From positions 2,108,992 through 2,172,991 of the forward strand of contig NZ_CP132333.1 of the NCBI RefSeq assembly GCF_030758935.1: 64,000 nt of DNA. Reading direction: 5' to 3'. The notes under the pieces are model-generated. The model saw nothing but the letters and a program-made list of their open reading frames with translations. It made no database searches and was not told the origin of the DNA. Position numbers and translations under genes: made by a program. Below are positions 35,798 through 40,844 of this stretch, piece by piece (the first letter of the stretch is position 1; every line of letters begins with the position of its first letter). The DNA is from Geothrix sp. PMB-07. Lineage in GTDB: Bacteria > Acidobacteriota > Holophagae > Holophagales > Holophagaceae.

Positions 35798-35938
35798 GTG
35801 CGGTAGTTTCTCCAAAAGGGGCCACGGGCCACCACGAACCAGACTAGCGGCAAATCCTTCATACACATAGTGATTTAAAGCACGAGTGGCTTGTTTTTCG
35901 CGGTGTCTGGCCACGGACCCACCTGGGACACTGAAGAC

Positions 35939-36805
35939 ATGGGAACTCCAATCAAGACCCTGAAGGCCCGGCTGGACAGCCTCTGTGATCGCTACGACAC
36001 CGGCGGCGCCCTGGACCGGGATCCACTCAGCGTCGTCCTCGCCTATGAGGCGCCCATGGATCGTGAGGTCGCGGCCTTCGTGGCCGCCCACCTGGCCTAC
36101 GGACGGGTGGAGCCCATGATCCGCGCCGTTCAAAGTGCCTTGGCCCCACTGGGACCCGACCCCGCGGCCTGGCTGCGAGCCCAATCCGAGCGGGACATTC
36201 AGAAAAAGCTGGATCACGCCCTGAAGGACTGGGCCTGGCGCTTCCACACCGGACCCGATCTGGCCGCCTGGCTGCTGGCCTGGAAGCGGCTCGATGCTGA
36301 AAGTGCCCAGGGGCTGGAACCCCATCTCCTGCCCCAACCGAAAAAAGGAGCGGACGAATCCCTGTCCCAGCTGGTGCAGCGCCTCCGCCTGGAATTGCCA
36401 CCGACCTACGGCGCCCGCTTTTCCCTGCCCGATCCTCTGGAAGGCGCGGCTTGCAAACGCTGGCGCATGTTCCTGCGCTGGATGGCGCGGCCCGGTTGGC
36501 CTGACCTCGGTCTCTGGGCCCACTACCCCGTGGGCAGCCTCATCATCCCCCTCGACACCCATGTGGCGCGGGTCTCCCGCTTCATCGGCCTCAGTGACCG
36601 CAGCACGCCGGATGGGAAGATGGCCCTGGAGATCACGGCCTCCCTGCGTCGCCTGGATTCGGAAGATCCCCTCCGCTACGACTTCGCCCTCAGCCACCTG
36701 GGCATCCTCGGCGACTGCCCAGGCCTGCGCCACCGCAGCACCTGCGCGGATTGCCCGCTCTATACGGTGTGTTCGGCGGGGGCCAAACCTCGGAAACGTA
36801 AATAG
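35939..36805 (+). CDS. TIGR02757/DUF2400-family protein with possible Fe-S motif
   Basis: A 288-residue protein of the DUF2400 (TIGR02757) family, recognised from PLSVVLAYEAPMDREVAAFVAA near the N-terminus, RWRMFLRWMARP and VGSLIIPLDTHVARVSRFIGL. The C-terminus has Cys-x8-Cys-x2-Cys-x5-Cys (CPGLRHRSTCADCPLYTVC), close to the 4Fe-4S loop of endonuclease III-type helix-hairpin-helix glycosylases. The central helices also resemble that fold. A DNA repair role is an inference; no biochemical activity is known to me for the family. ATG 35939 was chosen because the family begins shortly after it. Confidence 0.82.
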   Translation: MGTPIKTLKARLDSLCDRYDTGGALDRDPLSVVLAYEAPMDREVAAFVAAHLAYGRVEPMIRAVQSALAPLGPDPAAWLRAQSERDIQKKLDHALKDWAWRFHTGPDLAAWLLAWKRLDAESAQGLEPHLLPQPKKGADESLSQLVQRLRLELPPTYGARFSLPDPLEGAACKRWRMFLRWMARPGWPDLGLWAHYPVGSLIIPLDTHVARVSRFIGLSDRSTPDGKMALEITASLRRLDSEDPLRYDFALSHLGILGDCPGLRHRSTCADCPLYTVCSAGAKPRKRK

Positions 36806-36843
36806 GCGACAGCGCCCATGGAGTGGCCCCTTCGTCTGGAGGC

Positions 36844-36930
36844 AGGCCAGTGCCGACCTGTGAGCGCAAGCCGAAGGCGCGGCGCGAACGGATGGTAGGG
36901 CTGGCCCCGAAAGGGGCCGGGCTTACCACG
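36844..36930. repeat. 87-bp repeat, copy 1
   Basis: Begins AGGCCAGTGCCGACC and ends GGGCTTACCACG. It differs from copy 2 at only about two positions and contains the hairpin GGCCCC-GAAA-GGGGCC. Confidence 0.9.
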
Positions 36931-36999
36931 TGCGCGACCTAAGGGGGTCGCGGAGCAGAGCCCAGCGGGCTCTGAGGAGCGGGGACCCACTGGGAGCGT

Positions 37000-37086
37000 A
37001 GGCCAGTGCCGACCCGTGAGCGCAAGCCGAAGGCGCGGCGCGAACGGATGGTAAGGCTGGCCCCGAAAGGGGCCGGGCTTACCACG
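37000..37086. repeat. 87-bp repeat, copy 2
   Basis: Near-identical direct copy of 36844-36930, offset by 156 bp. The same GAAA-tetraloop hairpin is retained. Confidence 0.9.
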
Positions 37087-37291
37087 GCACTCGGGGGAAC
37101 GACTTAGGGCTGCTTCTTCCGATCTGACCCGGTTCATCGCACCCCGATGCATGGGGCCCGGCTTGAATTCAGCGTATCCGCGATCCGGGTCGGCACGCCA
37201 GTGCATGAGGCCTTCGCAAGCTGGCGCTGCCACTGAAAGTGGCGGATTTACGCACTCTTTTTAAGCAGCCGAAAAATCCGCCGCTCGCCCC

Positions 37292-37451: not shown

Positions 37452-40400
37452 ATGAAGATCGCCCGCCATTTCACCAAGGCAGGTCACGACCCCTTGGAAG
37501 GCATTCCCTTCGTCCCGCGCACCAGCCGCATTTCCAAGCTCGATGGCACCGTGGTGTTCGAGGCCAAGGATGTGATGGTGCCGGAAACCTGGTCCCAGGT
37601 GGCCGTGGACATCCTGGCGCAGAAATACTTCCGCCGGAAGGGTATTGATGCCAACAACGGCGGTGAAAAGGATGCGCGGCAGGTCTTCCACCGCCTGGCA
37701 GGCTGCTGGCGCCATTGGGGCGAGACGCACAGCTACTTCGACTCCGCCGAGGATGCCCAGGCCTTCTACGACGAACTCACGTACATGCTGGCGAACCAGA
37801 TGTGCGCGCCCAATTCGCCCCAGTGGTTCAACACCGGCCTGCACTACGCCTACGGCATCTCAGGCCCGGCCCAGGGCCACAGCTTCGTCAATCCCCTCAC
37901 CGGGCAGATGGAGAAATCCACCTCCGCCTACGAGCGCCCCCAGCCTCACGCCTGCTTCATCCAGAGCGTGGCCGACGACCTCGTCAACGAGGGCGGCATC
38001 ATGGACCTGTGGACCCGCGAGGCCCGCATCTTCAAGTACGGCTCCGGCACCGGCACCAACTTCTCCAAGGTGCGCGGCTCCGAGGAACCCCTCTCCGGCG
38101 GCGGCCGCAGCTCGGGCCTGATGAGCTTCCTGGCCGTGGGCGACCGCGCCGCGGGTGCCATCAAGAGCGGCGGCACCACGCGCCGTGCCGCCAAGATGGT
38201 CTGCCTCGACCTCGACCATCCCGACATCGAAGCCTTCATCGACTGGAAGGTCACGGAAGAGCGCAAGGTGGCCATGATCGCCGCGGGTAGCGCTGTGGTG
38301 CGCCGCCATTGGGACGCCATCTGCAAATCCGTGGAGGGCTCCACCACCAAGGATGCCGATCCACTCACCAACGAAGCGCTCCGCAAGGCCCTGGCCCGCG
38401 CCAAGCGCGAGGGCGTGCCTGCAGCGTTCCTGACCCAGTGCCTGGGCCGCCTGGCCGAGGGTGATTTCGCCCGTGACCTGCAGGGCTACGACACGTCCTG
38501 GGATGGCGAAGGCTACCTCACCGTGGGCGGCATGAACTCCAACAACTCAGTGCGCGTGCCCGACGCTTTCATGCGCGCCCTCGAGATGGACGGCGACTGG
38601 GAACTGAAGCGCCGCATCGACGGGAAGGCCTGCAAGAAGCTGCGCGCCAAAGATCTCTGGGAGAAGGTGAACCGCGCCGCCTGGGCTTGCGCCGACCCCG
38701 GCATCCAGTTCAACACCACCATCAATGACTGGCACACCTGCCCCGAAGACGGCCCCATCAACGCGAGCAATCCCTGCTCCGAGTACATGTTCCTGGATGA
38801 CACGGCCTGCAACCTGGCCTCGCTGAATCTCTGCACCTTCCTCACGGAAGATGGCGGGTTCGACCTGACGGGCTACCGCCATGCCATCCGCCTCTGGACG
38901 GTGGTGCTGGAAATCAGCGTGCTCATGGCCCAGTTCCCCAGCGATTCCATCGCCAAGCTCAGCTATGAGTTCCGCACCCTGGGCCTGGGCTACGCCAACC
39001 TCGGCGCCATGCTCATGCGCATGGGCATCCCCTATGACAGCGTGGAGGGCACCCAGTGGTGCGCTTCGCTGACCGCCATCCTCACGGGCGACGCCTACGC
39101 CGCCAGCGCCGAGATGGCACGGGAGCTGGGCCCCTTCCCCGGCTACCAGAAGAACGCCCAGCACATGCTGCGGGTCATCCGCAACCACCGCCGGGCCGCC
39201 TACAACGCGCCTGCCTCCGAATACGAGCAGCTCTCCATCCGCCCCCAGGGCCTGCATGGTGCAGGCGTGCCCAAGCGCATCACCGATGCGGCCCGCGAAA
39301 GCTGGGACACGGCCCTCACCTACGGCGAGCAGTGGGGCTACCGCAACGCCCAGGTGAGTGTGCTGGCCCCCACGGGCACCATCGGCCTGCTCATGGACTG
39401 TGACACCACGGGCGTCGAGCCCGACTTCGCCCTGGTGAAGTTCAAGAAACTGGCGGGCGGCGGCTACTTCAAGCTGGTGAACCGCGCCATTCCCGAGGCC
39501 ATGGCCCGCCTGGGCTACACGCCGGATCAGATCCACGACATCGAGCGCCACGTGGTGGGCTGGCTGCAGATCACCGAGGAGACCCCCGGCATCACCCGCA
39601 GCATGCTCAAGGGCGCGGGCTGGGCCGAGGAGGAGATCGCCCTGGTGGAGCAGAAACTCCCCACGGCCTTCGACCCCGCCTTCGCCATCGACACCGACCG
39701 CCTGAAGAAGGATTTCAGCGCCGAGCAGGTGGAAACCTTCCTGCTGGCCCTCAGCGGCACCATGACCGTGGAAGGTGCGCCGCACCTCAAGGATGAGCAT
39801 CTGCCCATCTTTGACTGCGCCAACCGCTGCGGCCGCACGGGCAAGCGCTACATCGCCCCCATGGGCCACCTGCGCATGATGGGTGCCGCCCAGCCCTTCC
39901 TCAGCGGGGCCATCAGCAAGACCATCAACCTGCCCGCCGAGGCCACCGTGCCGGAGATCGGCGGCATTTATGAAGCCAGCTGGCAGCTCATGCTGAAGGC
40001 GGTGGCCCTCTACCGCGATGGCTCCAAGATGAGCCAGGCCATGGCCACCAACCTGGATCTGCTGGATGGCGCGGACACCCTGCTGGACGACTCCGCCACC
40101 GCCACCGAGAAGGCCCCGGCCGTGGCCCAGGCCCTCACGCAGCAGCTGGTGCGCACCTACCGCCGCCGCATGCCCAACCGCCGCGGCGGCTACACCCAGA
40201 GCGCCACCATCGGCGGCACCAAGCTCTACCTCCGCACCGGTGAATACGAGGACGGCAGCCTCGGCGAGATCTTCCTCGACATCCACCGCGAAGGCGCCGC
40301 CCTGCGCGCCATCCTCAACTGCTTCGCCATCGCCGTGAGCATGGGCCTGCAGCACGGCGTGCCCCTGGAAGAGTTCTGCGACGCCTTCCTGTTCACGCGC

Positions 40401-40844
40401 TTCGAGCCCGGCGGCATGGTGGCTGGCAGTGACACCATCAAGCTGAGCACCAGCCTCATCGACTTTGTGTTCCGCGAACTGGCCATCAGCTACCTGGGCC
40501 GCTACGACCTGGCCCACGTGGATCCCGAGCAGCTCATCAACGCCACCACGGGCCTGCGTCCCGGCAGCCAGGCGCCCAACCTCGTGGCCGCCATGCCCGC
40601 GCTGCCTACGGGCACGCCCCTGCCCTTCCCCGAGGGGCCAGTGGCTGGCGCCTCAGCCTCGCCCGCGCCCGAGCCCGTGCTCGTGGGCACAACGGGGGGC
40701 CGGGCCACGGTCAGCGCCGCGCAGGCCGCCCGCGAGAAGGGCTACACCGGCGACCCCTGCCCCGAATGCGGCCACCTCACCCTGGTGCGCAACGGCGCCT
40801 GCATGAAGTGCCAGACCTGCGGCGCCACCACGGGCTGCAGCTAA
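37452..40844 (+). CDS. nrdJ: Class II (adenosylcobalamin-dependent) ribonucleotide reductase
   Basis: A 1130-residue enzyme reducing ribonucleotides to deoxyribonucleotides with a B12-derived radical, needing no oxygen. The N-terminal NrdJ region has MCAPNSPQWFNTGLHYAYGI. The active-site barrel has NPCSEYMFLDDTACNLASLNL with the conserved Cys, and SVLAPTGTIGLLMDCDTTG. The C-terminal extension ends with a Cys-rich tail, CPECGH and CMKCQTCGATTGC, that re-reduces the active site and may bind zinc. ATG 37452 has AGGA at 7 nt. It carries its own promoter with a NrdR-like operator and its own terminator, so it is monocistronic. Confidence 0.94.
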   Translation: MKIARHFTKAGHDPLEGIPFVPRTSRISKLDGTVVFEAKDVMVPETWSQVAVDILAQKYFRRKGIDANNGGEKDARQVFHRLAGCWRHWGETHSYFDSAEDAQAFYDELTYMLANQMCAPNSPQWFNTGLHYAYGISGPAQGHSFVNPLTGQMEKSTSAYERPQPHACFIQSVADDLVNEGGIMDLWTREARIFKYGSGTGTNFSKVRGSEEPLSGGGRSSGLMSFLAVGDRAAGAIKSGGTTRRAAKMVCLDLDHPDIEAFIDWKVTEERKVAMIAAGSAVVRRHWDAICKSVEGSTTKDADPLTNEALRKALARAKREGVPAAFLTQCLGRLAEGDFARDLQGYDTSWDGEGYLTVGGMNSNNSVRVPDAFMRALEMDGDWELKRRIDGKACKKLRAKDLWEKVNRAAWACADPGIQFNTTINDWHTCPEDGPINASNPCSEYMFLDDTACNLASLNLCTFLTEDGGFDLTGYRHAIRLWTVVLEISVLMAQFPSDSIAKLSYEFRTLGLGYANLGAMLMRMGIPYDSVEGTQWCASLTAILTGDAYAASAEMARELGPFPGYQKNAQHMLRVIRNHRRAAYNAPASEYEQLSIRPQGLHGAGVPKRITDAARESWDTALTYGEQWGYRNAQVSVLAPTGTIGLLMDCDTTGVEPDFALVKFKKLAGGGYFKLVNRAIPEAMARLGYTPDQIHDIERHVVGWLQITEETPGITRSMLKGAGWAEEEIALVEQKLPTAFDPAFAIDTDRLKKDFSAEQVETFLLALSGTMTVEGAPHLKDEHLPIFDCANRCGRTGKRYIAPMGHLRMMGAAQPFLSGAISKTINLPAEATVPEIGGIYEASWQLMLKAVALYRDGSKMSQAMATNLDLLDGADTLLDDSATATEKAPAVAQALTQQLVRTYRRRMPNRRGGYTQSATIGGTKLYLRTGEYEDGSLGEIFLDIHREGAALRAILNCFAIAVSMGLQHGVPLEEFCDAFLFTRFEPGGMVAGSDTIKLSTSLIDFVFRELAISYLGRYDLAHVDPEQLINATTGLRPGSQAPNLVAAMPALPTGTPLPFPEGPVAGASASPAPEPVLVGTTGGRATVSAAQAAREKGYTGDPCPECGHLTLVRNGACMKCQTCGATTGCS

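Follow-up and report, generated by a model that had tools for sequence, protein, structure and literature searches.

A hairpin element probably inserted with a long target-site duplication beside the SRP RNA gene of Geothrix

Among the closest described counterparts of the arrangement reported here are IS1549 and IS1634, insertion sequences with direct repeats of 8-514 bp at their insertion sites, for which no mechanism was proposed (PMC2266710). Such long and variable target-site duplications (TSDs) were described in 1998-99 from two insertion sequences; according to a 2008 study of the family, no mechanistic model had by then been put forward for them (PMC2266710). On Geothrix repeats, or on small elements with long TSDs, nothing specific was found in open-licence papers, a body of literature in which a description published in a subscription journal could be missed.

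The window analyzed here, 64,000 nucleotides of the Geothrix sp. PMB-07 genome (NZ_CP132333.1), holds two 87-bp direct repeats (H) on either side of a hairpin element of ~69 nt (E), just downstream of an SRP RNA gene. It is strongly indicated that the repeat consists of the tail of the SRP gene plus its flank, placed on both sides of a hairpin that belongs to a dispersed family, and the case that E was inserted with a long TSD is a good one. We consider it probable that E, a non-autonomous element, inserted just downstream of the SRP gene with an 87-bp TSD reaching into the gene 3' end, giving the order SRP-H-E-H-native flank, and that it belongs to a Geothrix/Holophagaceae family with long, variable TSDs.

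The SRP RNA locus and its direct repeats

An earlier sequence-only reading had described two near-identical 87-bp copies, each with a GGCCCC-GAAA-GGGGCC hairpin, and further hairpins between them, and all of this was found exactly as placed: the copies agree at 85 of 87 positions (two mismatches, period 156), a similarity far above chance, the hairpin is present in both, and the sequence between them forms the hairpins GCGACC/GGGTCGC and CAGAGCCC/GGGCTCTG. The stretch, which had been called non-coding, is not simply so, as its minus strand holds the SRP RNA gene, part of which lies in one of the copies (Table 1). The match to RF00169 exceeds the gathering score of 40, and it is the sole Rfam RNA accepted in the whole window, in agreement with the view that the repeats are no CRISPR, tRNA, or riboswitch. 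A c-di-GMP-II match of 17.6 bits (gathering score 47.9) overlaps the SRP RNA and is put down to chance, Histone3 matches in both copies reflect nothing but the terminator-like hairpin, and a phage or plasmid origin found no match.

Table 1. Features of the SRP RNA locus in window coordinates
Feature	Position	Strand	Remarks
Neighbor, TIGR02757/DUF2400 family gene	35891..36805	+	Convergent with SRP gene
Right copy H of TSD	36844..36930	-	Orphan SRP 3' end and hairpin, joined to native downstream sequence; 98% identity to left copy
Hairpin element E	36931..36999 (covariance model match 36932-37000)	-	75.8 bits, E-value 1.5e-13 in own genome, model R1
Left copy H of TSD	37000..37086	-	Last 19 nt of SRP RNA gene (37068-37086), hairpin, and ~55 nt of 3' flank
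GC-rich hairpin in H, resembling second hairpin type (CGCGCCTTCGGCTTG...)	37015..37048; right copy ~36859-36892	-	Similar motif in L041, L056, L234; likeness judged by eye
SRP RNA gene (small bacterial type, ffs)	37163..37068	-	Rfam RF00169, 62.5 bits, E-value 2e-11, model 1-97, full length
Neighbor, vitamin B12-dependent ribonucleotide reductase (NrdJ)	37452..40844	+	

The left copy is contiguous with the working SRP gene and contains a terminator-like GGCCCC-TTTC-GGGGCC hairpin (37058-37074, minus strand). Because this copy starts inside the SRP RNA gene, the right copy, which begins 1 nt past the 3' end of E, is an orphan SRP 3' end, and the earlier suggestion of a repeated small-RNA domain holds in the sense that it is the 3' end of that gene that was duplicated. 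The SRP RNA core is ~95% identical across the genus, and many Geothrix species carry an extra piece 3' of the gene, at whose end stands a second SRP 3' end, shorter than the first; at the SRP locus of several species (L025, L026, L030), E or the second H is missing. As the SRP-hairpin arrangement is conserved in many species, the single-locus occurrence without conservation that had been named as counting against the sequence-only reading does not apply. In many species, the sequence past the SRP end (37040-37086 in the window) folds back on the SRP 3' strand (GGYAAGCCCGGCCC...GGGCCNGGCTTRCC), and this fold could act as a terminator or as a competitor of SRP folding.

A search of the 4.24-Mb single-contig genome for the 87-bp unit, of which dozens of copies would have indicated a REP-like family, returned two copies at one locus and no third. 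The proposal of a REP/REPIN-type mobile repeat is thus wrong for the 87-bp unit and comes close for the intervening 69 bp, which belong to a dispersed hairpin family other than the known REPs; this piece is also single in the genome by plain DNA similarity, and other genomes have related sequences at other loci.

A hairpin family of Geothrix and related Holophagaceae

Covariance modeling of relatives, which had been recommended, was carried out on E and revealed strong covariation. The model was built from an alignment of 20 copies (A1), in which 10 of 18 pairs show two-sided changes. In an alignment of 118 copies, which was fitted to the model and so favors the structure, as A1 was not, 97.8% of cells are paired, two-sided changes number 360 (106 in shuffles, at most 64 when slid), and the covariation score reaches 0.504 (0.174 in shuffles, at most 0.099 when slid). 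The outermost four bases pair as well, although they lie outside the structure of the model: this 4-bp terminal clamp occurs in the compensated versions TCGC/GCGA, TCCC/GGGA, TGAC/GTCA, and GTGC/GCAC and pairs completely in 13 of the 30 distinct types, compared with a shuffle mean of 2.3 and maximum of 8. The ends of E read TCGCTCCCTGTGGG...CCCACATGGTCGCGA, and its terminal inverted repeats, a hallmark of MITEs, are imperfect and ~15 bp long (TCGC-TCCCTGTGGG and TCGCGACCATGTGGG). In the E of the window (DNA fold z -3.7), part of the outer stem is lost and the element folds as two hairpins.

Copy numbers rest on searches with the covariance model, which found six copies of E in its own genome and between 1 and 24 in each of 45 of the 47 Geothrix genomes, the extremes being none in G013 and G033 and 24 in G006 and G018. 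Among 297 sampled Acidobacteriota genomes, matches were confined to Geothrix and two other genera of Holophagaceae, with none outside this family, and exact-pattern matches likewise bear Geothrix and Holophagaceae names.

Several side observations concern the family and its surroundings. Tandem arrays of partial E units with periods of ~66-92 bp lie beside full copies at L043, L050, L053, L111, and L189. At the SRP site (L004-L031), E belongs to one of two outer-stem subtypes (GTGGG or GCCGGG) depending on the species, with the same right junction, which suggests exchange of E or recurrent insertion. A second, different hairpin type (CTCACGCTGCACCTGCGGCTTGCGATC) was found at xerC at L234 (G006:C3:224000-225400), where a ~200-bp copy of the preceding DNA follows the hairpin; similar hairpins occur at L041 and L056.

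Duplications at E sites and orthologous sites without E

At most E sites, the DNA right after the last base of E is a copy of DNA lying shortly before it. When copies were grouped into 26 independent genomic sites, 16 had such a duplication, starting 0-6 nt after E, and 10 had none; none was found in 650 control pairs, each made of the upstream DNA of one site and the downstream DNA of another. The copied stretch begins 36-274 bp before E, depending on the site, and 86-87 bp before it in the window. In its own genome, E is flanked by a duplication at four of six copies, of which three lie at SRP, groEL, and a glutaredoxin gene; the two weakest show none. The duplication sites across genomes include genes of the groEL, xerC, SprT-like, glutaredoxin, HPPD, ElbB, zinc-ADH, and MacB/FtsX types. 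Most insertions are old and common to several species, and at groEL and glutaredoxin the species do not share one right junction, so that a mixture of erosion and repeated events is present there. We abandoned the view that gene 3' ends are what E specifically copies, as the other gene end is seemingly copied at one site (L047, L048, L078); long TSDs, together with the survival of insertions outside genes, can account for the gene-end pattern. At a SprT-like gene (L040, L044, L046, L054), the protein ends in THGIGSEPD upstream of E and the downstream copy reads THGIGHE in several species; to judge from these sequences, the left and right gene ends have by now diverged.

Orthologous sites without E at xerC, groEL, and one more gene carry a single copy of the stretch, from which we infer that E inserted with TSDs of 36-274 bp. 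In G010 and G034, xerC has E and two ~61-bp copies, whereas the orthologs of other species lack E and carry the stretch once; the alignment of filled and empty sites gives a net insertion of 135 bp, that is, a ~61-bp H plus a ~74-bp E. The left copy there ends in the conserved TGA of E, which is the stop codon at this site and thus appears to be supplied by E. A duplication at the insertion that is missing from empty sites, as expected of a MITE, was therefore seen at xerC, and duplications at 16 of 26 sites, with a length atypical of MITEs. At groEL in its own genome, E accompanies a duplication of ~274 bp spanning the coding end and the terminator, while the close relative G028 has neither E nor duplication and its native downstream sequence matches the right flank (L136 vs. 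L153). At the third gene (L112), the spacer between the coding end and E is native sequence found at E-less sites and therefore part of a duplicated target that has decayed on the right side; L188 keeps this type of spacer on both sides of E. No SRP site without E was found in a very close relative, G028 having another E subtype there (L004), and for this reason the insertion step at the SRP locus is drawn from the sister loci.

A local tandem duplication, in which E already lay 3' of the gene, replication slippage or template switching from its 3' end back upstream duplicated the H-E unit, and the second E was later lost, would agree with the tandem H-E units present at L145 and L015, with the tendency of hairpins to promote slippage, and with some right H ends at groEL that fit CATG microhomology. 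We judge it unlikely, given that the usual structure is H-E-H with a single E and native flank directly after the right H, that the second E would have to have been lost cleanly at most of the 16 sites, and that xerC fits a one-step insertion with a TSD.

After insertion with a long TSD, the two H copies seem to have had histories of their own. The groEL right copies of three species share a derived insertion, the remaining left and right sequences being alike, which suggests an old insertion followed by gene conversion; some right copies are eroded, and tandem H-E arrays are found at L015 and L145. At xerC of G060 (L218), the gene end resembles a chimera of left and right H, possibly because E was removed by recombination between the copies. 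In view of later conversion, erosion, and recombination between H copies at sister loci, the high identity of the window's copies, which had been read as a sign of recent duplication or selection, is no proof of recent origin, and selection is taken up below.

Candidate enzymes and comparison with known systems

The duplication, the family, its conserved fold with the clamp, the fixed junction at the 3' end of E, and the single-copy E-less sites elsewhere were all observed directly. Beyond these, we propose that an enzyme acting in trans would recognize the folded strand of E, nick both strands of the target at points separated by tens to hundreds of bases, and join E to it, with fill-in yielding the TSD. 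Insertions would persist mainly just outside genes, so that, with the insertion point outside the reading frame and the duplication reaching back, a TSD would often copy a gene 3' end and leave the gene intact. At a later stage, H copies may be homogenized by recombination or conversion between them, which may also build (H-E)n arrays or delete E. What we can say of the enzyme, the strand recognized, and any function for the SRP gene is weakly held.

Transposases of the IS1634 type came into consideration through the direct repeats of 8-514 bp documented for IS1549 and IS1634 (PMC2266710), and the long variable TSDs of E (36-274 bp) are a trait reported for these two members of the IS1634 family. 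That E is a MITE of such an insertion sequence, a proposal on the enzyme within the insertion model, would also suit its ~15-bp imperfect terminal inverted repeats, but it is improbable: a transposase above the cut-off was found in only 5 of the 47 genomes, and neither in the genome studied here nor in most E-rich ones, the ends of the recovered insertion sequences (CTGAAGTTCCATAT, CTAGCCCAAGTTCCGCAC) differ from those of E, and no long TSD was seen at these elements. IS1634 parentage was rejected as unsupported, and since the transposase is so restricted and the ends are unmatched, the likeness is one of product and not of membership.

A reverse-transcriptase route resembling target-primed reverse transcription, in which one nick would serve for the reverse transcription of E RNA and a second nick would lie far away, would explain the one fixed junction at the 3' end of E, the long variable TSDs, and the conserved RNA-like fold. 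RVT_1 (PF00078), however, was found in 15 of 47 genomes and not in the E-rich G018, G008, and G001, so the E-bearing genomes do not consistently hold the reverse transcriptase expected for a DGR or retroelement, and we give this route little chance. None of the IS1634, Y1/RAYT, and reverse transcriptase genes tracks E across the 47 genomes, the latter two being missing in several genomes with 19-24 copies, and no autonomous parent with E-like ends was found among the IS1634, Y1_Tnp, and RVT_1 families; a lost parent or partner, or an enzyme family beyond these three, is possible. Y1 (IS200/IS605-like) transposase matches number seven in the genome of the window (G000:C1:701572 and six others) and few in congeners.

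A selected duplicate of the SRP 3' processing or termination signal, with no mobility, would account for the high identity of the 87-bp copies and for the duplicated terminator-like hairpin; the same arrangement at protein genes, and the several species without E or second H at the SRP gene, make this very improbable. Movement of a REP/REPIN by RAYT (TnpA-REP), suggested by a small intergenic hairpin near gene 3' ends, is scarcely tenable, being contradicted by the distribution of Y1_Tnp (PF01797), which is present in 5 of the 47 genomes and missing from the E-rich G018, G006, G008, and G001; TSDs of 36-274 bp are also not known from REPs.

The preferred reading, insertion of E with a long TSD, makes the family one way in which gene 3' ends become duplicated or altered. 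Because it offers dozens of comparable insertions with long TSDs, together with empty sites, in Geothrix species of which several are cultured, the question of long TSDs becomes directly testable. More speculatively, and with doubt, a distinct class of non-autonomous elements may comprise E and, at a minimum, the second Geothrix hairpin type (L234); its members would insert as a folded single strand via widely separated target nicks, every insertion copying tens to hundreds of bases of the neighboring gene.

Compared with known systems, the SRP RNA gene of this locus is of the standard small bacterial type (RF00169) and is the origin of the duplicated tail, the right copy being a 3' fragment only. 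E shares long variable direct repeats with IS1549 and IS1634; in contrast to these full insertion sequences of 1.5-2 kb with ends C-----YT, it is a hairpin of ~69 nt with other ends, and their transposase is missing in most E-bearing genomes. Like MITEs, E is short, non-coding, dispersed, and TSD-flanked, with imperfect terminal inverted repeats, but MITE TSDs measure a few bp, whereas those of E reach 36-274 bp, no parent transposon was found, and its internal fold is strongly conserved. With REP/REPIN sequences and their RAYT, it has in common small intergenic hairpins near gene ends, a conserved fold, and possible arrays; it differs in low copy number (at most 24), long flanking duplications, and the lack of a RAYT in most genomes (42 of 47). 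E is thus a new long-duplication MITE/REP-like family.
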